NCBI GenBank assembly: GCA_000492175.2 | Contig: CP097573.1 | Span: forward strand, 3,596,001-3,660,000 | Length of the DNA stretch: 64,000 bases | Source of the DNA: Firmicutes bacterium ASF500 | Lineage (GTDB): Bacteria; Bacillota; Clostridia; Oscillospirales; Oscillospiraceae | Direction: 5' to 3' | Shown: positions 4,938-24,686 of the stretch, piece after piece | Layout of the letters: each line of letters starts with the position of its first letter | Position numbering within the stretch: position 1 is the stretch's first letter | Notes under the pieces: generated by a model | Told to the model about the DNA's origin: nothing | Databases searched by the model: none | Seen by the model: the letters and a program-made list of their open reading frames with translations, nothing else | Made by a program: the position numbers and the translations under genes

Positions 4938-4941
4938 ATTT

Positions 4942-9529: not shown

Positions 9530-9532
9530 TCT

Positions 9533-9787
9533 ATGGGATACTTTGAGAAGATCTATCAGTCCGACCTGAACCACCGGGCCAGGGCTGTGTATATGTACCT
9601 GAAGGATCACGCCGACAGCGAGGGCAAGTGCTGGCCGGGGATACGCACGATCTCCGCCGAGCTGCGGATGTCCCGCTCCACCGTCAAGCGGGCCTTGGAC
9701 GATCTGTACAGAGCGGAGCTGATCTCCAAGGAGCATCGCTGGCGGGAGAACGGGAGTCTCAGTTCAAATTTATACCGGCTGAAGTAG
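9533..9787 (+). CDS. Small winged-helix DNA-binding protein
   Basis: An 84-residue protein opening MGYFEKIYQSDLNHRARAVYMYL. It carries the helix-turn-helix IRTISAELRMSRSTVKRALDDLYRAELI (about 40-68), the pattern of RepA/DnaD-like winged helices that often start replication initiators of clostridial elements. It ends soon after this domain, so it may act as a regulator rather than an initiator. It is coupled to the coupling-protein gene with a three-base gap. A strong hairpin 16 bases downstream ends the transfer operon. Confidence 0.8.
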   Translation: MGYFEKIYQSDLNHRARAVYMYLKDHADSEGKCWPGIRTISAELRMSRSTVKRALDDLYRAELISKEHRWRENGSLSSNLYRLK

Positions 9788-9802
9788 TGCGAAAAAATAT
9801 AA

Positions 9803-9840
9803 GTTCTCCGCCAGGGAGTCATTGCGCCCTGGCGGAGAAC
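9803..9840 (+). terminator. Hairpin ending the transfer operon; boundary of cargo region
   Basis: A perfect 14-bp stem (9803-9816 with 9827-9840, GTTCTCCGCCAGGG) follows the winged-helix gene. It has no T run, so it could also be a structured leader. After it a 17-codon frame (9857-9910, MNQPEGPTLRESLEQRK) looks like the start of a backbone gene that breaks off. From about 9911 to 9996 I see nothing recognisable. Accessory genes begin there, on the opposite strand. Confidence 0.5.
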
Positions 9841-9996
9841 CGAGGGTAGGTTCACCATGAACCAACCAGAAGGGCCCACTCTAAGGGAGAGTTTAGAACA
9901 GAGAAAATGACAAACAGGCTCTAACGGTCGTTAGGATAGACACTGCTCTAACAGAAAGCCAAGCAAAGCAGACAAGGATCTGACAGATTTGTATAT

Positions 9997-10530
9997 TCAG
10001 ATTTTTCTGAAAATATCTAATGTATCCGAAGTGCCTACGGCTATGTAATTTCCGCATTTGCTAAATCCAAATGCCTTTATTTCATAATTCTCAAAGATAA
10101 TGGTACATTTCTCTGGATTTAGCGTATAAAGCGTATATTGGGGCATAAATATAATTTTCACCATCGGCCAAAAAGGAGCTACTGAAACCAACGTGTTTCC
10201 GCCTTTGGAAAATCGCCGCAAACCGCCGCCACGATCCCCAGCGATTGGCACAATTTCATCCCCCAATTCTTCAGCAAGGGCAATCAAATCATCTTCATCA
10301 TAATTTTCAGTACAATATGTTTTACTGCCTGTTTTGCAATCTATAATGCTCTGCCTTTGGCTCGATATGACAACTAATTTCTCGGTATGTATGTTTGAAA
10401 AGCCTAAATATATTAAACCACCGACTGCATAAGTAACTTTTTCCCACCCATCAGGGACACCTGTTGGAATGCATTGGATGATACCCTGCATCTTTTTTCT
10501 ATGCTCAATTTCATTTGTGTCCATAACCAT
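9997..10530 (-). CDS. Unrecognised protein, beta-rich, possibly immunity-type
   Basis: I do not recognise this 177-residue protein. It has no signal peptide or membrane segment. The first 75 residues resemble no family I know; the middle reads CTENYDEDDLIALAEELGDE, an acidic helix; and the C-terminal 80 residues alternate short hydrophobic strands (YTLYTLNPEKCTIIFENYEIKAFGFSKCGNYIAVGTSDTL is one run of such strands, in overlapping pieces). This suggests one or two propeller-like blades. The low GC compared with the transfer genes indicates separate origin. It sits at the left edge of a run of orphan immunity-like genes. Confidence 0.6.
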   Translation of the reverse strand: MVMDTNEIEHRKKMQGIIQCIPTGVPDGWEKVTYAVGGLIYLGFSNIHTEKLVVISSQRQSIIDCKTGSKTYCTENYDEDDLIALAEELGDEIVPIAGDRGGGLRRFSKGGNTLVSVAPFWPMVKIIFMPQYTLYTLNPEKCTIIFENYEIKAFGFSKCGNYIAVGTSDTLDIFRKI

Positions 10531-10571
10531 ACCTCCGTTCCATTTTTTATCCGATGCTTATAATCAGCCAA

Positions 10572-10787
10572 TCAGAATGAATAAAATCCCTCTCTCAAAA
10601 TGATTGCTAAGATATAAACTGCGAAAAAAGCGCAGAAACCGCCCAAAAGCAGAGGAATCATCGCCAAAATTTTGAACCGCGCCTTTTTCCAGATTTCCCA
10701 CGCCGCTTTTAGCAAAACAACTGCTATCCCCGCCGCGCCTAATATCGTAACAAAAATGGAAAAATAAGCTAATCCCACGGTTCTCAC
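10572..10787 (-). CDS. Small membrane protein, two transmembrane segments
   Basis: A 71-residue protein starting at GTG 10787, or possibly one of the following codons. Two hydrophobic segments, about residues 5-27 and 38-62, are separated by a basic loop (EIWKKARFK), so it should span the membrane twice. The family is not recognised. It lies between two other minus-strand accessory genes in apparent co-orientation. Confidence 0.55.
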   Translation of the reverse strand: MRTVGLAYFSIFVTILGAAGIAVVLLKAAWEIWKKARFKILAMIPLLLGGFCAFFAVYILAIILREGFYSF

Positions 10788-10822
10788 CTACTTTCTTTGT
10801 TGGGTTGATTTCATTTGATTTA

Positions 10823-11389
10823 TCAGTGTTTATCCAATGTAACCGAAATTGTTTCGTTCCCTCCGGCTCCATTTGCAACAGATAGTGTCACTGTATCCCC
10901 CTGCCAAACAAGCGAGTATTCCCCGGCGCAGACCGGCCTGTATCCGTCGTCGGTAATGATGCGTTCCTTCAGGTAAATCAGAAATGGATTGACCCGCTCA
11001 TATAGAGTTACCTTCCCAGAGATTAAGCTGACATTTTCCATGATAACGATGGTATGTATTCCGTCTGGTGAAGTGAAGCTGTGGTATTCCTCCCCTCTAT
11101 CAAAAAAGATACAAAGGAAATTCCCACATAACAATAAAAAGACCGTACCAGCGGCAATCATCGCAAGTATTATTTTATTTTTCAGTGCTTTTTCGGTTTC
11201 TCGATATTGCAGAAACGCAAGTGTTACTCCGCAAACCGCCGCAATGCAGTTTAGTATGCCTTGTATACGAAATGCCGTCCCCGTAGTCCCAATCAACAGA
11301 TTATAGTCCATCATCCAAATAATGATTACAATGCAAGGGAAAGCAAGCCACAAGGCAAGATATAAGTACAAGATTTTTCGCAATTTCAT
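10823..11389 (-). CDS. Membrane protein with C-terminal extracytoplasmic domain
   Basis: A 188-residue protein with an N-terminal hydrophobic helix (about 5-27), a second (about 43-62) and a third (about 73-95). A 90-residue beta-rich domain follows (FTSPDGIHTIVIMENV, VTLYERVNPFLIYLKE, GGNETISVTL). Such domains with a TSPDG-type opening are common in uncharacterised clostridial membrane proteins (DUF5412-like), but I cannot name the family firmly. It is co-oriented with the small two-helix protein downstream and may form a membrane pair with it. Confidence 0.65.
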   Translation of the reverse strand: MKLRKILYLYLALWLAFPCIVIIIWMMDYNLLIGTTGTAFRIQGILNCIAAVCGVTLAFLQYRETEKALKNKIILAMIAAGTVFLLLCGNFLCIFFDRGEEYHSFTSPDGIHTIVIMENVSLISGKVTLYERVNPFLIYLKERIITDDGYRPVCAGEYSLVWQGDTVTLSVANGAGGNETISVTLDKH

Positions 11390-11424
11390 TTTCGCCTATC
11401 TCCAAAGCAGTCTTTGTATATACC

Positions 11425-12795
11425 TCAATACCCCCGGCGTTTCAAATCCGCCGCCAGCTTTACATAGAACTCCCGCACGTCGAAGCCCCGGATGTTCTCC
11501 CGGTTCAGATCCACCACGTCCCCGTGGGAGATACCCCGCTTCCCCTGGGGCTCCAGGAGGGTGAACCGCTCCCCCCACTTGGCTGACTCCACCGACACCA
11601 GCCCGTCGTTCAGGCCGTCGAAGTGCTTGACGATGGGGTATGTCATATTCAGCGGGAACTTGCCATGCTGGGCCTTCTTGCAGTAGGACATGACGCTCTC
11701 ATACACCACGCCGGGAGCGTCGAGCGTCACCTCGTTCCGGGCTAGGCACGCGCTCTCCGTCAGGTCGGTCACCGCCGCCAGGAAGTCCGGGTTGGGGTCG
11801 CCCACCTGCTTCATCGTGGCGTTGTAGGCCGCGGCGATTTTCAGCCGTGCGGCCTGGGGAACCTTGCCCAGCAGGTACTCGGCAAAGATGCAGCCCCGGT
11901 GCGGGGTGTTGATGGTGGTCAATGTCGCCACATAAGGGGCCATGCCGCAGTGGGCGATGGCGGCCCGGCTGTCCAGCCCGCCCTTGGAGTGGGCGATGAT
12001 GTTCACCTTCCCACAGCCGGTTTCCTCCACGATCTGCCGGATGCGCTCCGCCAGCTCCTTCCCGCTGTCTTCCACCGCCGCTGCGGACTGCTGCTGGCCG
12101 TAGTAGACCGTGGCCCCGTTGCGCCTCAGCTCCTTGGGAATGCGGCCCCAGTAGTTGAGGTAGCGGAAGTCCCGGAAGAACACGCCGTGGACCATCAGGA
12201 GGGGATACTTCGTTTTGCAGACCTCGCTCTCCGCCCGAACCACGTCCAGCTCCCACTTCTGGGTTTCAAACTCCACCTCGTCCCCGCAGATGCGGATGAT
12301 TTTTACCAGATACCAGAGGTTCACCAGAGGAATCCACCCGCACAGAGCCGCCAGAACCCGGTGCTTGATCCCCAGCTGAACCGAGGTGAGGTAGACCCGG
12401 ATCATGCCGTTCCAGAAGACAATGGCCTCCAGGATCACCGCCAGCAGCACGCCCATCGCGCCCCCAAAATACCCCCACCAGTCAAGGAAGCTGTCCGCCG
12501 CAATATCGACACGCAGTACGTTCAGCCAGAGAAGCTGGAGCAGGACGGTGGCCGTGGCGGTCACGCAGAACAGCCGCAGCAGCTCACAGCCCTCCGCCAG
12601 CCGCTGGATGCGCTTGGTGGGGCCGGACTTCGGAATAGGCCGGAGATTCACCCAGAGGAACGCCGCCGCCAGGGGCAGAAACAGCCACCCCGCGCCGGAA
12701 ACTGACCATTTGGCGTACAACAGCCAGACCAGCGGCAGGGCATTCGCCGCCGCCGTCAGCAGCAGGCCGTAGACGATCTGCCTGACATACTTCAT
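11425..12795 (-). CDS. Membrane-anchored lipase/esterase, alpha/beta hydrolase
   Basis: A 456-residue protein. The N-terminal 190 residues carry about five hydrophobic helices. The remainder is an alpha/beta hydrolase of the triacylglycerol lipase kind, with an oxyanion-type strand PLLMVHGVFFRD (about 200), the nucleophile elbow IIAHSKGGLDSR (Ser near 265), then TTINTPHRG. An acid and a late His are expected, and ISHGDVVDL near 430 fits the His. The substrate is unknown; membrane lipids or acylated molecules are plausible. GC is higher than in the neighbouring hypothetical genes. The gene is monocistronic, and its upstream region faces the next gene divergently. Confidence 0.85.
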   Translation of the reverse strand: MKYVRQIVYGLLLTAAANALPLVWLLYAKWSVSGAGWLFLPLAAAFLWVNLRPIPKSGPTKRIQRLAEGCELLRLFCVTATATVLLQLLWLNVLRVDIAADSFLDWWGYFGGAMGVLLAVILEAIVFWNGMIRVYLTSVQLGIKHRVLAALCGWIPLVNLWYLVKIIRICGDEVEFETQKWELDVVRAESEVCKTKYPLLMVHGVFFRDFRYLNYWGRIPKELRRNGATVYYGQQQSAAAVEDSGKELAERIRQIVEETGCGKVNIIAHSKGGLDSRAAIAHCGMAPYVATLTTINTPHRGCIFAEYLLGKVPQAARLKIAAAYNATMKQVGDPNPDFLAAVTDLTESACLARNEVTLDAPGVVYESVMSYCKKAQHGKFPLNMTYPIVKHFDGLNDGLVSVESAKWGERFTLLEPQGKRGISHGDVVDLNRENIRGFDVREFYVKLAADLKRRGY

Positions 12796-13014
12796 AAAGC
12801 CGCCTCCCGTTCAACAGCGCCCACCGGCGCTTTTCTGCGTTTATAGTAGACCTTGCCAACGGGGTTGTCAAGTTGGGAGGCCGGGCGGTTCTTTTCAGAA
12901 ACCGGATTGAACCGGGATAGGAATGATGGTATAATCAAGGCATTAAATCGTCATTTACCATTTGCTACTCTGTCCGGACACACTTAAATCAAAAGGCACA
13001 AAGGAGTCATCATC

Positions 13015-13473
13015 ATGACAGAAAAAGTCAGAAAGTGTATCACTGACTGTCTTCCAAAAGAAACCACTTATCTGGGCGAATTTTTGTTCCTGATGCCAGA
13101 TACCGTCTGGGAAGGAAAATCTGGTGGGCAAAGTTTTGTGGCAGTTGCAGAAGACCGATGGCTCTCTGGTTCGAGCGGCCAGTTTCTGGCTGTGACAGAG
13201 AATGGATCTGTCTATAAAGGCGACTTGGGTGACTGCGGTCTGTTTCAGTACTGCGCTGCCAGCTTTCCACAGTTTATGGAAATCATGAGGGTATACCAAG
13301 CTGTGCTTGAGGCCCGCCAACCGCCAGATGCAGGGGACAAAGAAGGATTTCGACGATGCGAGAAAGAGGAAGAAGCTCTCCGTGAAGCAATCACCCGGAT
13401 TGATTCCACCGCACTACGGGATGATAGGACATTTTGGAGTATCTGGGCAGAAGAGATTGGCTACGGCTTTTAA
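13015..13473 (+). CDS. SUKH-4-like putative immunity protein
   Basis: A 152-residue cytoplasmic protein with AAAGGAG about ten bases ahead of its ATG. A central run of beta strands (QSFVAVAEDRWL, GQFLAVTENGSVYKGD) is followed by a helical C-terminus ending IDSTALRDDRTFWSIW. The D-x-x-FW..W.E.I..G ending is the pattern I associate with the SUKH-4 immunity family, proteins that neutralise polymorphic toxins. No toxin gene is adjacent. The call is by pattern only and moderately sure. Confidence 0.5.
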   Translation: MTEKVRKCITDCLPKETTYLGEFLFLMPDTVWEGKSGGQSFVAVAEDRWLSGSSGQFLAVTENGSVYKGDLGDCGLFQYCAASFPQFMEIMRVYQAVLEARQPPDAGDKEGFRRCEKEEEALREAITRIDSTALRDDRTFWSIWAEEIGYGF

Positions 13474-13560
13474 AATCCAATTCCTGTTCTGTCATATATT
13501 GCATTGCATAAATAACTTTCCAGTTTATCGGAAAGTAGGCTATGAGGGATTGAACCCACC

Positions 13561-14286
13561 ATGGAAACCGTCAAACGCGGCTATATGCCGAAAGATACTA
13601 TCGAATTTGGCCCCAAGGCCGCGGCCAAGCTGAACGCCGCCGCCCAGGAGCTGGCGTTCCTGCTTGATCGGGGGTACGACACCAAATCCGCCTCCACCTT
13701 CGTGGGCAACCACCACCTGCTCTCGGAGCGCCAGCGGCTGGCCCTGGCCCGGATCACCTCTCCCCGCGCCGCCCTGGAGGAGCGGGAGCGCAAGCGGCTC
13801 CGGGAGGCGCCGGAGGCCCTGGTGCTGGACGGCTTCAACACCGTCATCACCCTGGAGGTGGCCCTGTCCGGCTCCCTGCTCCTGGAGGGCATGGACGGCA
13901 CCATCCGGGATCTGGCCGGACTGCGGGGGAGCTACCGCATCGTGGACAAAACAGTGCGGGCCGTGGAGCTTCTGCTGGCCCGGCTGGAGGCCCTGGGGGT
14001 CAAGGAGGCCCTGTTCTATCTGGACCAGCAGGTGTCCAACTCCGGCCGCCTCCGGGCGTTGCTGCTGGACAAGGCGGCGGAACGGAGCGTCCAGGTCCAG
14101 GTGGAGCTGCACCCCAGCGTGGACGGTGTCCTCTCCCGCCTGGAGAACGTGGTCACTACAGATGCCATCATTTTAGATAAGTGTGGAAGCTGGTACAACC
14201 TGAACCGGGGAATCATCGAGGAGGCTGTCCCGGAGGTGTGGGTCTTGCGGCTGAATGGACTGGACAGTAACGGGGTTCTGCTATGA
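13561..14286 (+). CDS. DUF434 domain protein
   Basis: A 241-residue protein matching DUF434 proteins along its length: an N-terminal ELAFLLDRGYDTKSASTFVGN block with LSERQRLALARI, then a Rossmann-like half starting VLDGFNTVITLEVALSG and continuing FYLDQQVSNSGRL. Function is unknown; the acidic and Asp-rich strands suggest a nuclease- or PIN-like fold, but that is inference. Start ATG 13561 gives the METVKRGYMPKD opening typical of the family; ATG 13585 is an alternative. Its GC is well above its surroundings. It overlaps the next gene by four bases (ATGA). Confidence 0.75.
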   Translation: METVKRGYMPKDTIEFGPKAAAKLNAAAQELAFLLDRGYDTKSASTFVGNHHLLSERQRLALARITSPRAALEERERKRLREAPEALVLDGFNTVITLEVALSGSLLLEGMDGTIRDLAGLRGSYRIVDKTVRAVELLLARLEALGVKEALFYLDQQVSNSGRLRALLLDKAAERSVQVQVELHPSVDGVLSRLENVVTTDAIILDKCGSWYNLNRGIIEEAVPEVWVLRLNGLDSNGVLL

Positions 14287-14972
14287 AAACTGCGGTATTG
14301 AAAATGTTCCTCCTGGCTCTTTCCTCTCTTATGCTCTGCGCCTGCCAAGCATGTGACAAAGGTGTTGAGCCGGAGCAGGACCACCCAGCAGAAGTCCAAC
14401 AGATCATCCAGGCATATTCCCCCATCATCACTGACTGCGATATAAAAAACGCTGAATTTTCGCTGATATATCTGGATGACGATGCAGTTCCAGAACTGGT
14501 GATCCTGGACAGATACTACAACAGATATTCCATTTACACCGTAAAGGACAGTTCTGCCGTTTGTCTGGTTGACCATATAACTACCGTAGAAATGTCCTAC
14601 TATGAACACTGCGGTGTTATATCGGCATTTTATAGGTGGAATGGAGGCGGGGATGAAGGGAGCTATGCCAACGCATATTATCAGATAGATCAGCATTCGG
14701 AGCCACTGACAGATGACTCCATACCGGATTTTGAGTTTACTTATAATGCAGTCTATGATGAAAACAGCCAGTGGACCGGCACTGGAACGGTCAATTATTC
14801 CGTCAAGGGAGAAGAGATTGACGAAGCGGCCTATCAGCAAATACTGGCCGACCTCGATCTCCCGCAGGCCGAAGAAAAAAGCTGCTTTTCGGAAACCAGC
14901 GAATGCTTCACAAAGGATGAACTCTTGCTATACTTGGAGATGACAACAACTTTGGAGGCAGCCTCATCATGA
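14283..14972 (+). CDS. Unrecognised lipoprotein
   Basis: A 229-residue protein with a lipoprotein signal: MKTAVLKMFLLALSSLMLCAC, with the lipobox Cys near residue 19-21. The mature part has helical and beta stretches and an aspartate-rich segment (IYLDDDAVPELVILD) of the type seen in FG-GAP/VCBS-like calcium loops. It probably sits on the outer face of the membrane. It overlaps both neighbours by ATGA and so belongs to a three-gene operon with the DUF434 gene and the large two-domain membrane protein. Function unknown. Confidence 0.75.
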   Translation: MKTAVLKMFLLALSSLMLCACQACDKGVEPEQDHPAEVQQIIQAYSPIITDCDIKNAEFSLIYLDDDAVPELVILDRYYNRYSIYTVKDSSAVCLVDHITTVEMSYYEHCGVISAFYRWNGGGDEGSYANAYYQIDQHSEPLTDDSIPDFEFTYNAVYDENSQWTGTGTVNYSVKGEEIDEAAYQQILADLDLPQAEEKSCFSETSECFTKDELLLYLEMTTTLEAASS

Positions 14973-16870
14973 GCAAAGAAAAGGTTTTGAAACTATCATG
15001 GCGCGTTCTTTTAGCCGGAATGTCCATACTTACGGTTCTATTCTTCCTTGATATTAAGTTCGTAGTATTAGGGATAAACATTCTTGTGCTGGATATGCTG
15101 ACTGCCGGCATCTGGGCCTTTGTCCGCTTATGCAGGTGGGCTGGCCGTGAGAATACTGAAAGAAGAACTGCTGCTATAATCGCTATAACGCTTGCGGGAT
15201 TGCTCGCGGCATCGGTTCTGCTGCTTGGCTTGGGCATGTACGGAGGATGGTACGAGTATGCTGAAGGAACGGAACCGCAGACCCACCGCACCTTTGTGGT
15301 GGAGTATCGACGCAATATGCTTCAGAAGGGAACAGCAAAAGTATATGAGCGATTCGGCCCACTGCTATTCCCCTGCAATGTGCCAGAATACCACGGCGAG
15401 CTAAATTTTGATGAATTGGACTCCAAGTATGCGAGCGTCTACATCAGCGAGGAACAGCAAGCAATTACTGTTTCTCTTTTCATCTACGGACCAAGGTTTC
15501 ATATACCGTTGGAACTGACCGGAAAATCGTCCACGTCCCCTGAACAGCTGCTGACGGAGCAGCCCATAGACGATACCCACGATGCTTTCCTGATCGACAC
15601 AGGCGGCGAACTTGGTACGCTGCTGGTGACGGCGGAACTGGACGAGGAAGCGCCCACCAAGGATTGCTGCGCCACTGTGCGATTTACCGTTTGGAACCCT
15701 GATGCCATGGACGAACCCCTTCAAACAATCATAGCGGGTACGAATATCTTCCTGGACTGGAGCATCATAGACGCCAACTTCGATGGCTGCGCAGATTTCA
15801 CCTGCACCTATCTTCGAGGGAACCAGTCCTATTACGATCACCTCTGGATTTGGTGCGAAGAACACCGGCAATTCGAGGGCATCCCAGAGTACGACGAGAT
15901 TTCTGTCCCAGAATTGGACGCGGAAACCGGGACGATCTACGGTTTTAACCGCAGCAGCGCCGGCGGCACAGGACTGCATACCTTCCACCAATGGATCAAC
16001 GGAAATCTCACCTGTGTGCGCCAAATCAAGATTGACTCCGGTCTGGCCAATACGGTCCGCATGTCTGTCCAGGACCGCGTTGCCGGTGAACTGGCGGAGA
16101 TCTATCACGAAGATTTTCCCATAGAGTCCGGCGGCTGGCAGGACGCGCAAATGGTGTGGCACGACCTGGACTACCACGGCGAGCCGGGCGGAATCTATGA
16201 CCTCTTCCAACAGCAACCCATAGATGACACCCACGATGCCTTCCTGGTGAGCACCGGCGGCAAGCTGGGCACGTTACTGGTGACGGCAGAACTGGCTATG
16301 GAAAACAAGGATGAATTTGGAACCCGCGATATTACATTTTCTGTCTGGAATCCGGTTGATATGGAACAGCCCATCCAAACATTTTCAGAGGAGTTTATGA
16401 TGGGCGTCGCACCGGAGTTTCATCATGTGGTGGACGCTAATTTTGACGGTTTTCAAGATTTTGGGTATCTCTTTCATGCAGGAAATCAACCATATTATCA
16501 ACATTACTGGCTGTGGGACGAGGTGCAAGGTCAATTCCAATACTGTGCGCCTCTTGTAGAGATTTCACAGCCCGTATTTGACCCGGAGCGGCAGGTAATC
16601 ACCGGCTGGGCACGCAGCAGCGGAGCCGGTGATGGTATCAACACCTTCCACCGCTGGGAGGACGGGGAGCTGGTTTGCGTGCGGCGGATCGAATCATTCT
16701 CACCGTGGGAGGAGCCAAGCATTGTCTGTGTGCAAGATCGGATCAATGGAGAACTCCAACAGGTCTATCGCGAGGAGTTCCCCTGGCCCGGCGAGGAGCC
16801 GGAAGGGCAGGAAGCGTGGCGGCAGGCACGCTATAAATGGTGCGATTTGGACTATCACGGAGAGCCATAA
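14969..16870 (+). CDS. Membrane-anchored protein with two XAC2610-like repeats
   Basis: A 633-residue protein. Two hydrophobic helices near the N-terminus (about 10-50 and 68-92) anchor a large outer part. That part holds an intragenic duplication: residues about 197-412 and 416-633 both start QPIDDTHDAFL and run through LGTLLVTAEL, FTVWNP, DANFDG, a Tyr-rich LW or WLW segment, and end W.DLDYHGEP. The DANFDG..DF block resembles VCBS/XAC2610 beta repeats, which bind calcium. Its function is unknown. It is translationally coupled to the preceding lipoprotein gene. The C-terminal ends of both repeats are almost identical, pointing to a fairly recent duplication. Confidence 0.75.
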   Translation: MSKEKVLKLSWRVLLAGMSILTVLFFLDIKFVVLGINILVLDMLTAGIWAFVRLCRWAGRENTERRTAAIIAITLAGLLAASVLLLGLGMYGGWYEYAEGTEPQTHRTFVVEYRRNMLQKGTAKVYERFGPLLFPCNVPEYHGELNFDELDSKYASVYISEEQQAITVSLFIYGPRFHIPLELTGKSSTSPEQLLTEQPIDDTHDAFLIDTGGELGTLLVTAELDEEAPTKDCCATVRFTVWNPDAMDEPLQTIIAGTNIFLDWSIIDANFDGCADFTCTYLRGNQSYYDHLWIWCEEHRQFEGIPEYDEISVPELDAETGTIYGFNRSSAGGTGLHTFHQWINGNLTCVRQIKIDSGLANTVRMSVQDRVAGELAEIYHEDFPIESGGWQDAQMVWHDLDYHGEPGGIYDLFQQQPIDDTHDAFLVSTGGKLGTLLVTAELAMENKDEFGTRDITFSVWNPVDMEQPIQTFSEEFMMGVAPEFHHVVDANFDGFQDFGYLFHAGNQPYYQHYWLWDEVQGQFQYCAPLVEISQPVFDPERQVITGWARSSGAGDGINTFHRWEDGELVCVRRIESFSPWEEPSIVCVQDRINGELQQVYREEFPWPGEEPEGQEAWRQARYKWCDLDYHGEP

Positions 16871-16888
16871 CGATGGGGGAAATTGATT

Positions 16889-17878
16889 GTGTATGCGAGA
16901 AAGAGCCTGGCTGTCAGCTTGATTATATCTTTAACTATAATCATTTTGGGAGGCTGTCACGCGCCATCAAAGCCAGAAATCGAATGGAGCAATCAGTGGG
17001 GGAACATCAGCGGAAACATTCTTGAGGACGGATACGTTGCTGCCAATGGAAACACTGTTTGCTATGCGAGCCTAAATGAAGCAGCCGATGCACTGTATAG
17101 CCTCAGTGAAACTGGAGAGATTACGCTGATTTCCCGAAAAGCAGCTTACAATCTCAACATCGTGGATAATCAGGTGTATTTTACAAATGGATTACCCGGT
17201 TCAATTTGCCGTATTGATATAGATGGCACAAACTTCAAAACGCTTGTGCGGGGAGAATATCGGAATCTGTTTGTAAGCCAATCCCACATGGCCTATCTGC
17301 AAGGGAGCAGTCTGGTGGTATCTGACCTCGCTGGAGAGCATACAACAACCATTGCCTCTGATGTCCGCAGATTTCTTCCATTTGATGATACGTTTTTGTT
17401 TATCACAGGTAACATGGAGGCCGGCGGCCTTTATCAAATCAATCCAGATGGGACAGGGCAGGAATGCCTGTTTGACAGACCAATTATATGCCTTTGCTCA
17501 AACAGCGAAGCAATATACTTCTCTGTTTCTAATGATGTGACCACCTTTGGAGCATCTGGTGGCAGCGTTTATCAGCTGAACAAAGAGAGGAAAGTCATGC
17601 AGCTGCCAACAGAAATGGAATGCTGGGATATGAATGCAACTGATGAACATATTTTTTTCCGAAATCAAAGTGAGCAGGGTGCCCTATACCGCATGGATCT
17701 GGACGGCAGCAACATGATTTGTTTACTCCGCGAAAACTGCACCAATATTCATGTAATGGGAAATTCACTTGTATTTCGCATTGTTACTACCGGAAAAGGT
17801 GTAGACGCTGGATACTATGTCATGGGGCAGGACGGGAATGATCTGCGCCTGTTAGATAGTCAAACTGTGCCAAGCTGA
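16889..17878 (+). CDS. DUF5050-like beta-propeller lipoprotein
   Basis: A 329-residue protein with a lipoprotein signal ending ILGGC. The rest repeats short blades such as GEITLISRKAAYNLNIVDNQ, YFTNGLPGSICRIDIDGTNF and GALYRMDLDGSNMICLL, the DUF5050/WD-like pattern (R.D.DG.N...L). It should be an exported, membrane-tethered propeller, a binding rather than catalytic protein. I chose GTG 16889 because GGGGGA lies eight bases before it; TTG 16883 would be too close. It follows the two-repeat membrane protein by 18 bases and probably closes that operon. Confidence 0.75.
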   Translation: MYARKSLAVSLIISLTIIILGGCHAPSKPEIEWSNQWGNISGNILEDGYVAANGNTVCYASLNEAADALYSLSETGEITLISRKAAYNLNIVDNQVYFTNGLPGSICRIDIDGTNFKTLVRGEYRNLFVSQSHMAYLQGSSLVVSDLAGEHTTTIASDVRRFLPFDDTFLFITGNMEAGGLYQINPDGTGQECLFDRPIICLCSNSEAIYFSVSNDVTTFGASGGSVYQLNKERKVMQLPTEMECWDMNATDEHIFFRNQSEQGALYRMDLDGSNMICLLRENCTNIHVMGNSLVFRIVTTGKGVDAGYYVMGQDGNDLRLLDSQTVPS

Positions 17879-18080
17879 TGCGCAACATACAGATAAGCGC
17901 AGAAACGATACGATAATCGTTGTGGAGGAAAAGACGTCGTGGACAGGAAAGAGCATTAAAGAAAAAGCCCAAGTCCACCAATGAGGAATTGACGATGGCT
18001 TTGAACCTTTATTTGCAGACTATAAATGAAACAGCATAAAATTTGCTGACCTTGGCGGCGGCGATAGGCGTAAACTATCC
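17879..18080. other. Intergenic stretch with degenerate coding remnant
   Basis: There is no intact gene here. A plus-strand frame (about 17924-18041) ends TNEELTMALNLYLQTINETA and looks like the tail of a lost gene. Near 18050-18095 a GC-rich inverted repeat (GGCGGCGGCGATAG with CTATCCCCGCCGCC) could terminate minus-strand transcription. Confidence 0.4.
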
Positions 18081-18290
18081 CCGCCGCCTTGCGTGTTACC
18101 GCTCCATATCCTTCGCCTGCTGGTTACGCTCCTGTCCTTATCCTGTTCTTTGGGAGAGGCCGGGGGCGCGGGGGCAGAGCCACCGCAAAACCTACCGCCA
18201 GCCGCCGCAGTAGTGCAGACGGTTTTGCCGTTAAAATGGAGCGGACATAGAGCGAGGATTGTTTTCAGCGGGGAGATATGCTATACTTGG
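18081..18290. repeat. Cassette-boundary repeat, copy A, with promoter
   Basis: This is the first copy of a segment that recurs before the next immunity-type genes. It opens GTTACCGCTCCATATCC (minus strand: DMER then stop, the tail of a lost gene) and continues TCCTGTTCTTTGGGAGAGGC, a GGGGGCGCGGGGGCAGAGCC block and ACGGTTTTGCCGTTAAAATG. It ends with a promoter: TTGTTT (18259-18264), a 17-base spacer, TATACT (18282-18287) with an extended -10 TG. The promoter faces the SUKH gene at 18331. Confidence 0.7.
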
Positions 18291-18330
18291 GTCAGTAAAT
18301 TTACATCGGTAACAAGGAGGATTGAACTTA

Positions 18331-19218
18331 ATGAGCGGTCAAATGTATTCAATAAAAAGTGAACTGAATATTCTCCGACGATTTGTTAACATGGAATACG
18401 ATGGAAGTCGGCGTTGCTATTTCGAAAAAGATATTTCTGCGGCGGAAAAACGACTTCAGTATAAACTTCCGCTTCCTATCCGGGAACTCTATTTGGGTGC
18501 AGCAGATATACTGCTGGATATGGATTATCTGCGTCCCTTGGAATTGCTCCATTGGCAACAGGACTACTTATGCTTTTTTGATGCACCGGAGGCTGACTTT
18601 GTATGGGGGATTTGTAGAAAAGACGACCCCAATGCACTGTACGCCTGGGAAGAACTAATTCCAGAAGAGGCTGAGGACACTCTCTGCGACCTTGACGAGG
18701 AATTTGAAGAGTATGATGAAGAAAACAACATGAAAGGGAAAAAAGCCGTCGCACGCAAATATTCGGCCTATTGGGATAAAATCAATTTGCGCTACACAAA
18801 AGCGCCGCCTCGCCTAAAGAAGCTGGAACATGAATTCCGGCATAACTGCTCTTTGGATGCTTTTGGATTGTTTTTAGTTATCCACTCTTTGTTTTCCTAT
18901 GCAACAGAATTATACTGCCTAAAAAATCTGAACTGTCATTTGGGGGATTTGCCAACACCATCTGAATGTGAGCCTATCTATTTTGAAAAACTAAGGAAAA
19001 ATATTGAACAGGAATTTACTCCTATTTCCGATCATTTAGAATTGATTGATATATTCCCGCTACCAATGGCGTATGTCCATAAAACTGCGAACGCTTTGCT
19101 TATTTGTAATGAAGAAGCTGGTTTTCTGACATTATTAAGCGATAGAACTGCAAAGCCTGGCTTTATAGAGAAAATTCAAAACTGTCTTGCTCTGCCATTG
19201 CGTCAATGCAATCAATAG
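18331..19218 (+). CDS. SMI1/KNR4 (SUKH) family putative immunity protein
   Basis: A 295-residue cytoplasmic protein. The first 140 residues fit SUKH: ISAAEKRLQYKLPLPIRELYLGAAD, then LRPLELLHWQQDYLCFFD and WGICRKDDPNALYAW. The rest is helical, with an acidic run (DLDEEFEEYDEEN, about 128-140). SUKH proteins commonly neutralise secreted nuclease toxins. I chose ATG 18331, ten bases after AAGGAGG, rather than TTG 18322. It has its own repeat-borne promoter and no adjacent toxin, so it looks like an orphan immunity gene. Confidence 0.75.
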   Translation: MSGQMYSIKSELNILRRFVNMEYDGSRRCYFEKDISAAEKRLQYKLPLPIRELYLGAADILLDMDYLRPLELLHWQQDYLCFFDAPEADFVWGICRKDDPNALYAWEELIPEEAEDTLCDLDEEFEEYDEENNMKGKKAVARKYSAYWDKINLRYTKAPPRLKKLEHEFRHNCSLDAFGLFLVIHSLFSYATELYCLKNLNCHLGDLPTPSECEPIYFEKLRKNIEQEFTPISDHLELIDIFPLPMAYVHKTANALLICNEEAGFLTLLSDRTAKPGFIEKIQNCLALPLRQCNQ

Positions 19219-19244
19219 CTTTTCCTACTTCCTAAAACACCTGT

Positions 19245-19400
19245 AACTTGAGGGCGCGGGGACAGAGCCACCGCAAAACCTACCGACATCTGCCGAAGTA
19301 GTGCAGACGGTTTTGCCGTTAAAATGAAGCGGACGAAAGCGGGGGGCAGGGTTGTCAAATCCTGCCCCCCGTTTTCAACGGGAAAGTGTGCTACACTTGG
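19245..19400. repeat. Cassette-boundary repeat, copy B
   Basis: It shares with copy A the blocks GGCGCGGGGACAGAGCCACC, GCAAAACCTACCG, GTAGTGCAGACGGTTTTGCC and TTAAAATGAAGCGGAC, then a hairpin (GGGGGGCAGG with CCTGCCCCCC) and GTTTTCAACGGG, ending in TACACT (19392-19397) as a -10. The hairpin is absent from the other copies. The repeat is directly upstream of the Imm1-like gene. Confidence 0.7.
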
Positions 19401-19442
19401 GTTGTTGTTATATAAATTCAATGTTTCAAGGGGGTGGATTAT

Positions 19443-19841
19443 ATGTGGAGCATTTGTTGGGATTTGACAAATAAGGTAAAATGCGCTGATGCGAAAAAAA
19501 TTATCGAACTTATTGAAAAAATAGATAGAGAATATAGGCAAAAACAGCCCGTAATAGTTGAAATTGAGTCAGAAACTTCAAAGTCTCTATGTATAGGGGT
19601 CGGAAGCTCAGACGAACTTTGCTGTCTTGATTTTTTCCCTACTGCTGATGGCTTGGGGTCTATACATCCTGTTTCACAAATCAGAGAACATACTTTGGGT
19701 AGCATTGTGTTTTGGATGGATTCTTATGATTGTGAGTGGGAGAGAGATTTGTTAATCCCATATAAAGACGCAATAAAAGAATTACAACATTTTTTGAAAT
19801 ATGACAATATCAGCAATAACCTTATTTGGGAATTGGACTGA
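19443..19841 (+). CDS. Imm1-like putative immunity protein
   Basis: A 132-residue acidic protein beginning MWSICWDLTNKVKCADAKKI, followed by a long helix and the strands ESETSKSLCIGVGSSDELCCLDFFPTADG (split here around GVGSS). The arrangement of an N-terminal helix, a glycine-rich G-G/S-x-D strand pair and a C-terminal helix is that of the Imm1 family, found beside deaminase and nuclease toxins. I chose ATG 19443 over GTG 19434 because AAGGGG overlaps the latter. Low GC and its own promoter mark it as an independent cassette. Confidence 0.6.
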   Translation: MWSICWDLTNKVKCADAKKIIELIEKIDREYRQKQPVIVEIESETSKSLCIGVGSSDELCCLDFFPTADGLGSIHPVSQIREHTLGSIVFWMDSYDCEWERDLLIPYKDAIKELQHFLKYDNISNNLIWELD

Positions 19842-19953
19842 AAACATTTTTCCAATGCTCATTGTTATGGGCTTTTGATAATCTCTCCTCATTGATGTCT
19901 CTCCGTAAACGCTCGTCCACAGAGGCTTTAGCGTTCAAAATGTCCATGCCTAT

Positions 19954-20155
19954 GCCGCCCTGTCCGTTACCGCTCCATATCCCACGCCCGCCGGTTACGC
20001 ACTTACCCTTATCCTGTTCTTTGGGAGAGGCCGGGGGGCGCGGGGGCAGAGCGGAGATTTTTTGTGGAGCAAAAAATACTACTCGGCCTTGACGGTCTGG
20101 ATAGTCAGAACTGCGTAGAACGGCAATTGTTTTCAGCGGGGAGATGTGCTATACT
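19954..20155. repeat. Cassette-boundary repeat, copy C, with promoter
   Basis: This is a third copy: GCCGCCCTGTCCGTTACCGC, TCCTGTTCTTTGGGAGAGGC, the GGGGGGCGCGGGGGCAGAGC block, then divergent sequence and the promoter TTGTTT (20127-20132), 17 bases, TATACT (20150-20155). The promoter core differs from copy A by one base. To its left (19822-19947, minus strand) a 41-codon frame, MDILNAKASVDERLRRDINE and on, abuts the Imm1-like gene end and may be another gene fragment. Confidence 0.7.
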
Positions 20156-20201
20156 TGTGAGGAAGAAAATTTGATTAAGAGCTATGGGGAGTAAAAACTA
20201 A

Positions 20202-20762
20202 ATGAGTGTTACAAAAGCATTAGAATCTTACTTTGCACATCTTAAGCATCTTAATCGCGTTCTTCAAGTGATTGAGTTGCCACGCGATGCAGAACAACAA
20301 GCGGAAATGATTCAGAAATTGAATATGACACCTCAACTAATTGATTGGGATTCATGCAGAATAGAAGATGGAGTGAAACATTATTTGTGGAATCCTGTAA
20401 GAAAAACTGTTTTCCATGACTTATCGTCATACGAAAAAGAGTGGAAATTAAAAATTCCCTCGTCTGTGAAAGAATATTTTAATTCTTATTGGTTTATAGA
20501 TATCTTTGATGCAGCGTTTCAATTAATTCCAGTTGTCCCATGGGATATTCTAGGCACCTTTTATAATGAGTATTATGATGTTCAACTTGAACTCGAAGAG
20601 ATCGGAATAGAAATGCAAGCTATACCAATTGGGACACACGAATATGGAAGGGTGGTTGTAAACTGCCAAGATGAGAAAATATATGCGTTAGATCCAGAAT
20701 CACATGAGTGCTATTTTGTAGCAACAAATCTTGAATCTTTAATCAAAAATATGCAAATTTAA
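20202..20762 (+). CDS. Syd/SUKH-2-like putative immunity protein
   Basis: A 186-residue protein, low GC, in the Syd (SUKH-2) pattern. The N-terminal helix is followed by RKTVFHDLSSYEKEWKLKIP, then SVKEYFNSYWFIDIF, then the family-typical IPIGTHEYGRVVVNCQDEKIYALDPES (in overlapping parts), where a DE/D residue pair precedes the strand IYALD. Syd is an Escherichia coli SecY-binding protein, but many members act as immunity proteins. It has a repeat-borne promoter and no partner toxin. Confidence 0.7.
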   Translation: MSVTKALESYFAHLKHLNRVLQVIELPRDAEQQAEMIQKLNMTPQLIDWDSCRIEDGVKHYLWNPVRKTVFHDLSSYEKEWKLKIPSSVKEYFNSYWFIDIFDAAFQLIPVVPWDILGTFYNEYYDVQLELEEIGIEMQAIPIGTHEYGRVVVNCQDEKIYALDPESHECYFVATNLESLIKNMQI

Positions 20763-20780
20763 ATGGAGTAATGAAAACTC

Positions 20781-20960
20781 AAAATAGGGCAGCGGAAATA
20801 TGCGACTATCCCGCCGCCCTGTCCGTTACCGCTCCATATCCTGCGCCCTGCGGGGCTGCTGCTCCCGCTGTTCCTGCCGCAAGATGTTGTAAACGCTCCT
20901 GCGGATTTGCTCGGCTTTCCCGGTTCAGATTGCCGCGCTCCTTTATAAGGGCGCAAGCCC
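20781..20960. repeat. Cassette-boundary repeat, copy D, carrying a gene tail (minus strand)
   Basis: A fourth, longer copy shares GCCGCCCTGTCCGTTACCGC with copy C. Read on the minus strand (about 20923 to 20826) it encodes AEQIRRSVYNILRQEQ, then a Q/R-rich end DMER and a stop, followed by a GGGCGGCGG / CCGCTGCCC hairpin and TATTTT. This looks like the 3' end and terminator of a conjugative-element gene, probably a relaxase tail (inference). From 20960 to 21099 nothing more is recognised. Confidence 0.6.
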
Positions 20961-21099
20961 GTTACCCTTGCGCCCCGCCCCCCGTTAGCATTTGGGAAAA
21001 TAGAAAGCCGCCCGAAAATCAGAGCGTCATTTTGACGCTTCGATTTCGAGCGACTAATCGGATTTTGTTCGATTGTCAATCGATGGAATATCTTGCTGA

Positions 21100-21804
21100 T
21101 TATTCTTCTAAATCCCATTGCCCATAGTCTATTCGCCATGTCTGTGACCAGTCTTTAGAAGATTCTTCTTGGTAAACATCTATGGGTTCACTGCCCTGGA
21201 TAACATCAGCGAAGCCGTTGCTTGAAAGTCTAAAGAATGTAATGTAATGAACATTGGGTTCCGTTTGCAGAATGTTGATTGCTGGTGCTTTGCATAAATC
21301 ATCAGTGGGTATAACATCATCCAAGAAAACTTGTATCTGTGAAATCTCTCCATCTGCTTGAAACCACTCGTGAAGTGATGTACCCTCTCCTGTTCCATCA
21401 GGCCAAGTAGTTGTACCCCAAAGTATCTTTACAATATACGGAGTGTCCAAATATGGCTGTATCATTTCAGAAAAATAATTTGTTGCTTCTTCACGTAGTA
21501 AGAGAGTAAAATAATCATCTAACCAGCACCAGTTTTTCCCGTTCGTTCGCAAACGACGCACGACAAAAGTTTCATCTGGAAATTGGTCAGACATTACAGT
21601 CAACACCCAATGGTAAGAGGGGTTGAGGTCGGGGAGTGGGCCGGGGCCATCTGCTTCACGCTCGGCGCTGATGATTGTAAACTCCCCGCTGTACCGGCTG
21701 GAAAGATACTGTCGGGCTTTCCCCTCTATTCCTCCGGCGCAACTGCACAGCGGCAGCACCAGCGCCCCGACCAGAGCGGCGGCAAGGGCATACTTTCTTT
21801 TTAT
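21100..21804 (-). CDS. Lipoprotein with damaged or non-standard start
   Basis: About 234 residues. The frame reads KRKYALAAALVGALVLPLCSC, a clear lipoprotein signal, then a 200-residue mature part (GKARQYLSSRYSGEFTIISA, DFQ-like strands, ending WRIDYGQWDLEE). No ATG, GTG or TTG precedes the signal in this frame at the right distance. GGAGG is followed by ATGCCATAA in another frame, and the codon in the natural start position is ATA (21804-21802). A two-base insertion after ATGCCA would explain it. The frame remains open upstream to 22053, but that part looks non-coding. The family is not recognised. Confidence 0.55.
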   Translation of the reverse strand: MKRKYALAAALVGALVLPLCSCAGGIEGKARQYLSSRYSGEFTIISAEREADGPGPLPDLNPSYHWVLTVMSDQFPDETFVVRRLRTNGKNWCWLDDYFTLLLREEATNYFSEMIQPYLDTPYIVKILWGTTTWPDGTGEGTSLHEWFQADGEISQIQVFLDDVIPTDDLCKAPAINILQTEPNVHYITFFRLSSNGFADVIQGSEPIDVYQEESSKDWSQTWRIDYGQWDLEE

Positions 21805-21974
21805 GGCATTATGCCTCCAATCTGTAAAAGAGCCGTCTGTTTCTGGACAACAGTATAGCACAGAACAAAGCTGTTTGCATAGTAGGCACAGATTTTTTGC
21901 TTTGTATTTCCGATTGACTGTGATAAAATGGATATAAACACAATTACGACCAAGCGACAATGTGGAGGGGTAGT

Positions 21975-22427
21975 ATGTGGAAAGATAAGCTAAAAAAAGT
22001 GCAAGAAATAAGCAATGGTTACTCGCTTGCTTGTGTAAATCCCGGAGTTTCAAATGACATTATCAATATTTGGTCTACCCATGTTCAAAGTTCATTCGGA
22101 ATTAAGCCGCCCCAGGAATTTATGAATATCTTGCTTTGTGCGAATGGTTTTGAGTGGAACGGATACATTTTGTATGGGGTTGACCAAGACTTTTTTGATG
22201 GTCCGGCATATACGGTGTCTGGATTGATAGAGCAAAACGAAATATGGCATGAGGTTGAGAGCCAAAGGGCCTATCTCTTTTTGGGAGAAAGCAACATAAG
22301 TTGGTATGTCTATGAAATAGCATCGGGCCGATATATGGAGTTGGATAATCCATCTGGTAGAGAAATGGTTGTTTTTAATTCTTGTGCAGAAATGTTAGAT
22401 AAACTTTTGGATGATTGCTTATCTTAA
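21975..22427 (+). CDS. YrhA/SUKH-type putative immunity protein
   Basis: A 150-residue protein in the SMI1/KNR4 pattern: helix ending FGIKPPQEFMNILLCANGFEW, then NGYILYGVDQDFFDG, YLFLGESNISWYVYEIASGR and a final helix with a D-rich end. This strand order, with a W-Y-V-Y-E-I core, is that of YrhA-like SUKH proteins. I chose ATG 21975, six bases after GGAGG, over the earlier ATG 21960, which precedes that site. It is the last of a run of such genes that all lack toxins. Confidence 0.7.
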   Translation: MWKDKLKKVQEISNGYSLACVNPGVSNDIINIWSTHVQSSFGIKPPQEFMNILLCANGFEWNGYILYGVDQDFFDGPAYTVSGLIEQNEIWHEVESQRAYLFLGESNISWYVYEIASGRYMELDNPSGREMVVFNSCAEMLDKLLDDCLS

Positions 22428-22758
22428 ACAACGGCGCAGTAACACCCAACGAGGCCGGGGGAAGTGTAGCCCCCTCCCGGTCTCGCTCCGCAAGCCCGTT
22501 ACCCCTGCGCTACGCTCCCGTCTGCGCCGCCCTCCTGCGCTGTCTGGGCGGCAAGCAAACTGTTCAAATCATTTCAGAAAAAGCGCCGCCCATGTCTATG
22601 ACACAGGCGGCGCCTTTGGACTTATCTCCTATAAACGGCTCCACCAAACAGGCAGGGCCAGCGGGACTTTGCTTCCTTTATTGAATGAGGTAGCTGATAG
22701 AGAAGCCGGCACTGGTTTTCCCGATGTTTTTCACATAAAGAACATACTTGTCCTTTTC
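22428..22758. other. GC-rich intergenic region with hairpins, no gene
   Basis: It contains GCAAGCCCGTTACCC, shared with copy D of the boundary repeat, and a hairpin at 22583-22614 (GCGCCGCC with GGCGGCGC) that probably terminates the SUKH gene. The final 80 bases before the M56 gene stop show nothing recognisable. Confidence 0.5.
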
Positions 22759-24171
22759 TCAGGAGACTTCACTCACGGAGATCCACTGGTACTCCATACC
22801 GTTGCCCTCAACCAATTTGACTTGGTACTCTGCGCCGTCTCCCAGCATCGTGCCTGCTTCGACCTCTCCCGCCAGAATGCTTTCTATGATAGGGAGATAT
22901 TTCCACTTCACACCATTGCTCCCTTTTGAAAGCAGAGAGTCCTTGAGGGTAGCATTGTCCTCATCCGCCCAAAACGCCCGCTCCTCTTCCGCTGTCTCAA
23001 AGAGCAGGATTTCTCCGGCCTCGACCTTTTTCAAAATCTCAGCCCATTCCTCCGGGGTGAATTTGCGTTCGTCCCCACGGTTCACCGACGCCAAGCCGCC
23101 CAAAGCGCTGTCGGTATCCTGCGGCCCAGCCTCCTGGTTGCTGCCCTCGGAAGCCGTGGGCTGGCCGGACGGCAGGGCAGAATCGCTCTCTTTCGCCACG
23201 GCCCCCGTTGTAAATCCGGTCGCCATGCCAAGGGTCAGGACAAGGGCAAGCACGACGGCCAGCAACGATGTTTTCTTGTATTTCATAATAGCAATTATCC
23301 TTTCTTCTGCGGCGTTCTTACTAAAGTAGCTGTGCATGAAGGAGAAGGGACGGCCCCGCTCCGCCATGTCGATCAGCGAATGGGCGTAGGACGCCCGCTC
23401 TGTCCCGCCGAAATGCCGCAGAACCATTTCATCGCAGGACAGTTCCAGGTCACGGTTGAGAAGAACCAGCATTACCCAGACCAGGGGGTTGAACCAGTGG
23501 ACGCACGCCGCGCACAGGGCCAGCAGCTTCCACAGCGTATCAAAGCGGCGGATATGGACGTATTCATGGACAAGGATATAGCGAACCAGCTGCTCATTGT
23601 CCAAATCCATCCCCTGCGGGAAGATGATGCGCGGCCGCAGGATGCCGATGGAGGCCGGGGAGCTTACCTTGTCAGAGCGGACGATTGCCAGAGGCCGGAG
23701 CAGCCGGTACTCCTCCCGCCATTTCGTGATAACGGCGTGGTATTCCACGAGAACGGCGGCTCTGAGTGCCCGGTAATTCTTTGCCAGCAGGACGGCGAAT
23801 ACCACAACAAGCACCACCGCGCCAACCATCCACAGGGCAGTCAGCAGAGGAATAGATAGGGCGGCTTCCGCCGGCCCTCTGGCGGCTTCAGGCGATGCCG
23901 GAACCTGGGCCTGACCGCCCCAGACTGTCACATAGCTGCCAGTGGGAACCGTCGTGTCCTCATGTCCCCAAAGTCCGGCAAACAGGTTGTAAACGCTCCA
24001 CCTCGACGTGAGGGAAAAGGGAATCAGCAGCCTTGCGATGACAATTCCCCACAGTGCCAGAAAGCTGGCTTTAGGCAGCCGGTACAGCGTGATGGCGCGG
24101 ACGATCACGATGGCCGCAATCAGCACCCCTGCCTGCACGCTCATTTCAACAATACCCATGGTTCCCCTCAT
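22759..24171 (-). CDS. M56-family membrane metallopeptidase, BlaR1/MecR1-like sensor
   Basis: A 470-residue protein. Membrane helices at about 8-27, 33-52 and 108-130 frame a cytoplasmic zinc protease with HEYVHIRR (HExxH, about residues 204-211), ELSCDE as the downstream glutamate motif, and a further helix near 305-325. The last 150 residues are a Gly/Glu-rich outer domain without a penicillin-binding SxxK motif that I can see, so the signal is unlikely to be a beta-lactam. It overlaps the repressor gene by four bases (ATGA), forming the usual BlaI-BlaR two-gene unit in which the protease inactivates the repressor. Confidence 0.9.
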   Translation of the reverse strand: MRGTMGIVEMSVQAGVLIAAIVIVRAITLYRLPKASFLALWGIVIARLLIPFSLTSRWSVYNLFAGLWGHEDTTVPTGSYVTVWGGQAQVPASPEAARGPAEAALSIPLLTALWMVGAVVLVVVFAVLLAKNYRALRAAVLVEYHAVITKWREEYRLLRPLAIVRSDKVSSPASIGILRPRIIFPQGMDLDNEQLVRYILVHEYVHIRRFDTLWKLLALCAACVHWFNPLVWVMLVLLNRDLELSCDEMVLRHFGGTERASYAHSLIDMAERGRPFSFMHSYFSKNAAEERIIAIMKYKKTSLLAVVLALVLTLGMATGFTTGAVAKESDSALPSGQPTASEGSNQEAGPQDTDSALGGLASVNRGDERKFTPEEWAEILKKVEAGEILLFETAEEERAFWADEDNATLKDSLLSKGSNGVKWKYLPIIESILAGEVEAGTMLGDGAEYQVKLVEGNGMEYQWISVSEVS

Positions 24172-24524: not shown

Positions 24525-24531
24525 AGTGATA

Positions 24532-24567
24532 ACTCCTTCTTGACTATGGCCATAGTCAAGAAGGAGT
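24532..24567. promoter_or_regulatory. 36-bp perfect palindromic operator before the BlaI-like gene
   Basis: Bases 24532-24567 read identically on both strands, with centre TTGACTATGGCCATAGTCAA. The arms include the AAGGAG ribosome site, so binding, or folding of the transcript, could act on both transcription and translation. The core TGACTAT..ATAGTCA is repeated in a second dyad upstream. Confidence 0.85.
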
Positions 24568-24593
24568 CTATCACAATCGTCAGGACTTGTCAA

Positions 24594-24611
24594 TGACTAT
24601 ATTTATAGTCA
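24594..24611. promoter_or_regulatory. Second operator dyad
   Basis: TGACTAT and ATAGTCA half sites are separated by four bases (ATTT). The half sites match those of the large palindrome 45 bases away, as expected for paired repressor sites over the promoter. Confidence 0.75.
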
Positions 24612-24686
24612 GAATAAAAGTGTGGACATCCGTTTCCGCCGAATCGTAGGTTCATCCGGAAGCAGTAGAATGAAGCACAGCGCAAA

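Follow-up and report, generated by a model that had tools for sequence, protein, structure and literature searches.

The question raised by this locus is how unrelated genes of immunity type come to stand one behind the other with no toxin between them. The stretch analyzed, referred to hereafter as the window, comprises 64,000 nt of Firmicutes bacterium ASF500 (CP097573.1, positions 3,596,001-3,660,000). Orphan immunity genes are known; their acquisition and build-up in gut Firmicutes are little understood. The original prediction was that orphan immunity-type genes lie here within a Firmicute mobile element, with no toxin nearby. It was upheld in part: family matches for some of the genes and predicted folds for two support such genes, and no toxin gene interrupts their tandem array. 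We consider it probable that the three genes of this array (18331-20762), termed cassette genes 1 to 3, are cargo that has outlasted the decay of its carriers, predicted integrative mobilizable elements of a single family. These elements have one slot, with a conserved promoter-like module on one side and the 3' end of the MobA/MobL relaxase gene (mob) on the other. Nearly every copy has its own gene in the slot, and in about one in four of those scanned it is a predicted immunity gene.

Immunity-type genes of the window

Coordinates of the features are collected in Table 1. The cassette genes are low in G+C (40.6, 35.5 and 34.4%, respectively) and are separated by 224 and 360 nt, with one copy of the module in each gap. 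The product of cassette gene 1 scored 14.8 bits against the SUKH-1 profile, below the curated cut-off of 25.4, and is tentatively called SUKH-like from its predicted fold. The product of cassette gene 2 matched no Pfam family at E ≤ 1; its predicted fold agrees with that of the DddA-immunity protein (Imm1), and because no profile matched it is called Imm1-like only. Both are assigned to immunity families by predicted fold, the first with less certainty, and comparison of their sequence profiles with the PDB returned nothing convincing. Cassette gene 3 reached 24.1 bits against PF07348, just under the cut-off of 25. In the profile searches, which had been proposed as a check of the prediction, the SUKH-4 gene at 13015 matched PF14435, SUKH-1 and PF07348 fell short of their cut-offs and Imm1 gave no match.

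The SUKH-4, XAC2610-like and YrhA genes (13015, 14969 and 21960) lie outside the cassettes. The XAC2610-type family is known for inhibition of a lysozyme-type effector. At least four and perhaps six immunity genes, each with its own upstream signal, had been expected; the three cassette genes each have a copy of the promoter-like module upstream, and the other three are not in cassettes. When toxin genes were sought next to homologs of the cassette proteins, homologs proved scarce: among 280 genomes of the family, the own one counted, only 2, 2 and 1 had them. The second match of the cassette gene 2 profile (E 7e-4) stands amid housekeeping genes. The sole true relative that was read (locus L226) adjoins a MATE-like transporter gene, named by eye, and is preceded by a weak promoter-like match (E 0.002).

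Table 1. Positions of the array, the element remnant and nearby genes in the window.
Feature	Position	Strand	Basis and remarks
Alpha/beta hydrolase gene, conserved backbone marker	11425..12795	-	PF05057 7.9e-7
SUKH-4 immunity-type gene	13015..13473	+	PF14435 2.7e-7; slot between abhydrolase gene and DUF434/DUF5616
DUF434/DUF5616 gene, conserved backbone marker	13561..14286	+	family match; 91.3% in L044
Protein with two XAC2610-type domains	14969..16870	+	NF047539 1.1e-32, two stretches
Hairpin and MobA/MobL 3' end, fused to next module	18040..18112	-	sequence, junction list
Module copy 1	18114..18290	+	most of both hairpins deleted; TTGTTT-17-TATACT kept (18259-18287)
Cassette gene 1	18331..19218	+	295 aa from ATG 18331; SUKH (Knr4/SMI1)-like predicted fold
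Module copy 2	19252..19402	+	end of hairpin 1 and whole hairpin 2 deleted; promoter-like site degenerate
Cassette gene 2	19443..19841	+	132 aa; Imm1-like predicted fold
Module copy 3	19954..20157	+	mob 3' end fused on; hairpin 1 lost together with part of hairpin 2; promoter-like site 20127-20155 kept
Cassette gene 3	20202..20762	+	186 aa; Syd/SUKH-2-like; PF07348 3e-5, NF003439 0.002
MobA/MobL relaxase 3' end and its hairpin, convergent with cassette genes	20788..20950	-	last 29 codons found; tblastn 93% over codons 469-497; 96.3% to L044
Lipoprotein-like gene stretch	20950..21899	-	88.2% over 965 columns; between mob and DUF3847 in L214 (Oscillibacter sp. 1-3)
YrhA-family gene	21960..22427	+	NF038335 4.6e-37; within element remnant
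DNA overlapping DUF3847 gene of relatives, right limit of remnant	22427..22551	-	matches to L039, L188, L214, L044

The repeated module and the one-gene slot

Repeat searches showed that pieces of one common sequence lie upstream of each cassette gene. The intact form of this module measures about 370 nt (locus L043 6334-6708, minus strand). Its left part is followed by two hairpins, of 90 and 72 nt, and these by a promoter-like site that has an extended -10. In each of the window copies at least one hairpin is incomplete; the deletion differs from copy to copy, and the promoter-like end is retained in all three, though degenerate in copy 2. Across 26 copies, 98.3% of 1642 hairpin cells were paired. 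Changes on both sides were found for 6 of the 64 hairpin pairs in at least one sequence; shuffled sequences gave 0.6 such pairs and slid partners 1-3, a comparison of little power with 26 sequences at 88% mean identity and shuffles that ignore relatedness. G-U was the commonest pair at several stem positions on the cargo-sense strand (A1 columns 65/100, 71/94, 72/93 and 156/189), a hint that the hairpins act as RNA rather than DNA. An origin of transfer, an ssDNA promoter and terminators were each considered as roles for the hairpins, with none favoured by the data.

Rfam searches of 17800-21200 and of the whole window identified no known RNA in the module. A match of the intact L043 module to RT-3 RNA (minus strand, 19.3 bits against a gathering threshold of 40.5, E 0.045) was taken as chance. 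A generic promoter scan was set aside because it returned about as many sites as shuffled sequence (19 vs 16.7, sd 4.0) and did not list the sites at 18259 and 20127. In the ASF500 genome all 10 repeat matches, and four of five promoter-core sites with at most one mismatch, fall within the window array or a second array at 1393-1399 kb. In this second array (locus L039) module cassettes with an Imm22 and a SUKH-1-type gene flank a MobA/MobL gene.

Sixty-nine stretches of GTDB genomes contained the promoter-like core. When the fetched loci were searched with a promoter-part profile, 70 copies were obtained (E < 1e-5 or in the window), among them the 36 on which the profile had been trained; merging of duplicates left 68. 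The next feature downstream of these 68 was a convergent MobA/MobL 3' end in 34, some of which (a few, the window included) are pieces fused to the next module; it was another module in 7 and neither in 21, and the sequence was too short in 6. Fifty-four copies were followed by a cargo open reading frame (ORF) of at least 90 aa. The leader before these ORFs had a median length of 49 nt and was 35-60 nt long in 38 of them, and the feature behind them was a mob end in 34, a module in 7 and neither in 13. The mob end came within 150 nt of the cargo in 27 of the 34 (one overlapping); the median distance between cargo stop and mob end was 44 nt.

The flanks of the slot align and its contents do not. 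Pairwise identity in 10-nt bins over 20 copies with a mob anchor (which lies past the next cassette where one follows) peaked at 0.86-0.92 at the promoter and, around the stop of mob, at 0.87-0.90, but fell to the chance level of 0.25-0.31 inside the cargo. Only 2 of 190 cargo pairs were homologous, one of them the near-duplicate L114/L126. The order of module, one gene and mob 3' end recurs in Oscillospiraceae and Lachnospiraceae. A search for the same array order in other Oscillospiraceae had been proposed as a check; the order of parts is found there, with differing cargo genes. As far as the open literature shows, a promoter-bearing one-gene slot in a mobilizable element appears to be new; searches of open-access papers, with subscription papers mostly outside their reach, yielded no description of such a module-plus-one-gene slot.

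The promoter-like part can also precede non-accessory genes, as it stands before a tRNA-adenosine-deaminase-type gene at L123 1301-1822 and before a LysR-type regulator gene at L046 7798-8757; mob remnants were found at neither place.

The module or parts of it were detected in 12 of 64 genomes of the genus (with a 296-base query), 18 of 400 of the family (several through short pieces only) and 3 of 391 of the class (two through short pieces), counts that include the own genome and rest on few scored candidates per genome. The module also occurs in records titled Lachnospiraceae, with up to 23 matches in one genome, and had no match in plasmid or phage collections. Genomes G464 and G462 (Lachnospiraceae/Clostridiaceae-titled), with 23 and 12 matches, many of them fragmentary, are good material for reconstructing cargo turnover.

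The predicted mobilizable element, its cargo and its probable decay

In four genomes the slot is part of a whole element inserted in a coupling-protein gene. Between the N-part and the C-part of the coupling protein lie, in this order, a large serine recombinase, DUF3847, MobA/MobL, cargo on the opposite strand and the module; the arrangement was found in Eubacterium plexicaudatum ASF492 (L183), Clostridia bacterium UC5.1-1D2 (L186), Oscillibacter sp. 1-3 (L189) and Pseudoflavonifractor sp. 524-17 (L213). The families were verified in L213 (recombinase PF00239 and PF07508, DUF3847 and MobA_MobL); the relaxase match is split in two pieces in L183 and L186, and in L186 the C-part of the coupling protein matches its Pfam family while the N-part alone matches none. 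The elements of L213 and L186 measure 5374 and 5664 bp, and their flanks rejoin in frame at the identical place. In all four genomes an integrase and a relaxase gene lie between the ends at a specific site; these small elements are likely mobile and are predicted to be integrative mobilizable elements. A second lineage, seen at locus L043, has a recombinase that is only distantly related (33% identity). In the window the element is represented by a remnant (about 18040-22551) that has no integrase, and the array looks like at least three remnants of the cargo slot of the element.

The junctions between units vary, and no fixed recombination point of the integron type is found at the cassette ends. 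A mob 3' end is fused to a module at 18096 and 19967 in the window and also in L039 and L201. L202 and L071 have a junction in common, at which the module is fused to the interior of mob, and in L121 and L214 cargo is joined straight to a module. Such variability is better explained by deletions wearing away elements that stood in tandem than by recombination at a fixed site.

Of 65 cargo ORFs collected, 49 were run on Pfam, and an additional ORF (L041) brought the number to 50; another 13 were left out as short, broken or near-duplicate, and the three window ORFs were scanned separately. Immunity families were matched at E ≤ 0.05 by 12 of the 50 non-window cargos (SUKH-1 six, SUKH-4 two, Imm22 two, SUKH-3 one and Imm-NTF2 one), eight of them above the curated cut-off. 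Fifteen matched other families at the same threshold, some below cut-off (two GNAT, flavodoxin, GrpB, LysR, deaminase, metallo-beta-lactamase fold, transpeptidase, P-loop kinase, GRAM and five DUFs), and 23 had no Pfam match. SUKH-1 matched 5 of 53 cargos at E ≤ 1e-3, set beside 6 matches across the own genome (Fisher p 2.6e-7, with about 3500 own-genome genes assumed, the two E-values on different scales and one of the 6 being a cargo of the second array). Over 56 ORFs of 270 nt or more, among them three near-duplicates, median cargo G+C was 39.3%, vs 55.7% for one mob gene. The notion of a slot dedicated to immunity is weakened by two observations: the cargo of all four coupling-gene insertions is not of immunity type, and L043 has a broken Imm22 frame.

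Natural swaps between near relatives were seen at two sites. Locus L044 is a sister element from another species of the same genus, and its backbone is 95.9% (6504-9986), 94.4% (11421-12956), 91.3% (13518-14253) and 96.3% (20810-20917) identical to the window. Between the abhydrolase and DUF5616 genes the window has its SUKH-4 gene whereas L044 has a SUKH-1-type gene, and before mob the window has three cassettes whereas L044 has two different ones. The SUKH-1-type gene of L044 matched no Pfam family at 1e-3. Its identity to the cargo of L075 is 84%, however, and that cargo matches SUKH-1 at 4e-4, below cut-off. The second site adjoins a CapA-like gene, named by eye. There the flanks of L045 and L049 are 90.5% and 87.8% identical, the latter flank including the promoter-like site, and the gene behind it is of SUKH-1 type in L045 and of SUKH-4 type in L049. 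Both SUKH matches are below cut-off, and the L049 gene is 36% identical to the window SUKH-4. Interchange of SUKH-4 and SUKH-1 types at two sites is what would be expected of functionally equivalent immunities.

These observations bear on three other explanations. Were the array the product of a site-specific cassette system, the module hairpins would be the recombination site (attC-like, or a relaxase or recombinase target), and a recombinase would move module-gene units singly into arrays. The conserved pairing of the hairpins, with its six two-sided changes, would suit such a system, as would the module-gene-module-gene tandem arrays and the recurrence of mob-module fusions near one place (twice in the window and in L039 and L201). 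However, the covariation behind the pairing is of low power, the junctions in L202, L071, L121 and L214 depart from that place, the window hairpins have been damaged by differing deletions with the genes nonetheless retained, and no recombinase was seen adjoining the window array. We consider this explanation quite improbable. It is still harder to credit that the module is a dispersed repeat which brings a promoter to whatever gene it lands in front of, its link to relaxase and immunity genes being incidental. Such a repeat could account for the 21 of 68 copies with no mob or second module nearby and for those before LysR, GNAT and deaminase-type genes, but not readily for a convergent mob end in half of the copies so close behind the cargo stop, for the narrow range of leader lengths or for the confinement of own-genome repeat matches to two arrays.

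Under the last alternative, which we judge unlikely, the locus is nothing out of the ordinary: a variable region of a conjugative element, now decayed, whose small genes are hypothetical and whose SUKH-type folds serve roles other than immunity. It draws on the dependence of two of the three cassette-gene family calls on predicted folds and on the majority of other cargo, which carries no immunity label. Against it stand the frequency of SUKH-1 among the cargos relative to the own genome, subject to the different E-value scales, and the interchange of SUKH-4 and SUKH-1 types at the two swap sites.

If the array consists of cargo from decayed mobilizable elements, it could have arisen as follows. 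The module would drive transcription of the cargo, and cargo would be exchanged by homologous recombination through the common module and mob sequences, by analogy with esaG (PMC9484751). Elements would pile up in tandem, and deletions that begin in one copy's mob gene and end in the module of its neighbour would remove mobility genes while cargo and promoter stay. The SUKH, Imm1 and Syd-type products may bind and neutralise toxins from other bacteria, and the host would thereby keep a reserve of immunity without adjacent toxins. Stockpiled cassettes would in this way let a cell hold protection against the toxins of its rivals.

Known systems and other genes of the window

By gene content the window array is a polyimmunity locus. 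Such loci, as described in some Firmicutes, contain several unrelated immunity-type genes in one orientation with strain-variable content; their gaps are small, they are possibly polycistronic, and some adjoin XerC/D recombinases (Zhang et al. 2012, PMC3482391). The window array shares with them the tandem co-oriented genes with no toxin between, but differs in its wide gaps, in the module copy belonging to each gene and in genes that look like cargo of a mobilizable element. Another possible polyimmunity locus is formed by three clustered SUKH-1 matches at 208.9-214.1 kb of the own genome (loci L003-L005), where no module match is present.

The original prediction likened the array to the acquired interbacterial defence clusters of Bacteroidales. 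These rAID clusters are characterised by a predicted tyrosine recombinase, co-oriented short orphan immunity genes including SUKH, low G+C and a conserved intergenic sequence (PMC12247911). The likeness extends to content and intergenic sequence: the window genes have 295, 132 and 186 codons, all on the plus strand, their G+C is below 41% and the intergenic module is repeated. It does not extend to the setting, which here is a clostridial one, with a serine recombinase and a MobA/MobL relaxase in the related elements and a single-gene slot that takes non-immunity genes too. None of the 39 window proteins scanned, a subset of the window's genes, matched a tyrosine recombinase family. The array looks like rAID in function but is not rAID, because the recombinase of the related elements is of another class.

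Integrative mobilizable elements of Firmicutes that sit in traG of Tn5252-family integrative and conjugative elements have a serine recombinase and a relaxase and undergo tandem accretion followed by decay (reviewed in PMC5704250). The present elements resemble them in recombinase, relaxase and insertion within a coupling-protein gene, but neither a fixed one-gene slot with a conserved promoter-hairpin module nor immunity cargo is described in the available part of that review. The esaG/tipC type VII immunity arrays, which change via homologous recombination in common sequence (PMC9484751), are likewise Firmicute immunity arrays; here, unlike there, the families are unrelated and no secretion locus was recognised among the proteins scanned.

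A wider role is conceivable, and we raise it tentatively. The element may represent a dedicated gene-capture platform of gut Clostridia, a one-gene socket with insulating hairpins, a strong promoter and a shared terminator that takes unrelated immunity and other small genes, which would then be stockpiled as self-promoted arrays. It would be a Gram-positive counterpart of integrons and rAID that spreads immunity without toxin. In practical terms, a slot with recognisable ends is a search tool, since any gene behind the module is a candidate immunity or accessory gene, and sister genomes supply ready swap pairs. The findings suggest that mobilizable elements, beyond phages and islands linked to type VI secretion, have a share in the arms race among competing gut bacteria.

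Several other features of the window were noted. The coupling-protein gene of the host element appears to be split by a group II intron (4939-9529), with Rfam matches at 5318-5486 and 7881-7990 and a reverse transcriptase at 5976-7898; L044 has a coupling-protein part and a reverse-transcriptase ORF in the same arrangement. Three large serine recombinase genes follow one another at 40896-44994, the middle one without a match to the resolvase N-terminal domain. Genes for a BlaR1-type M56 peptidase and a penicillinase-repressor-type protein occupy 22759-24593, within a stretch (22433-26916) that is 95.6% identical to Flintibacter muris (locus L201).

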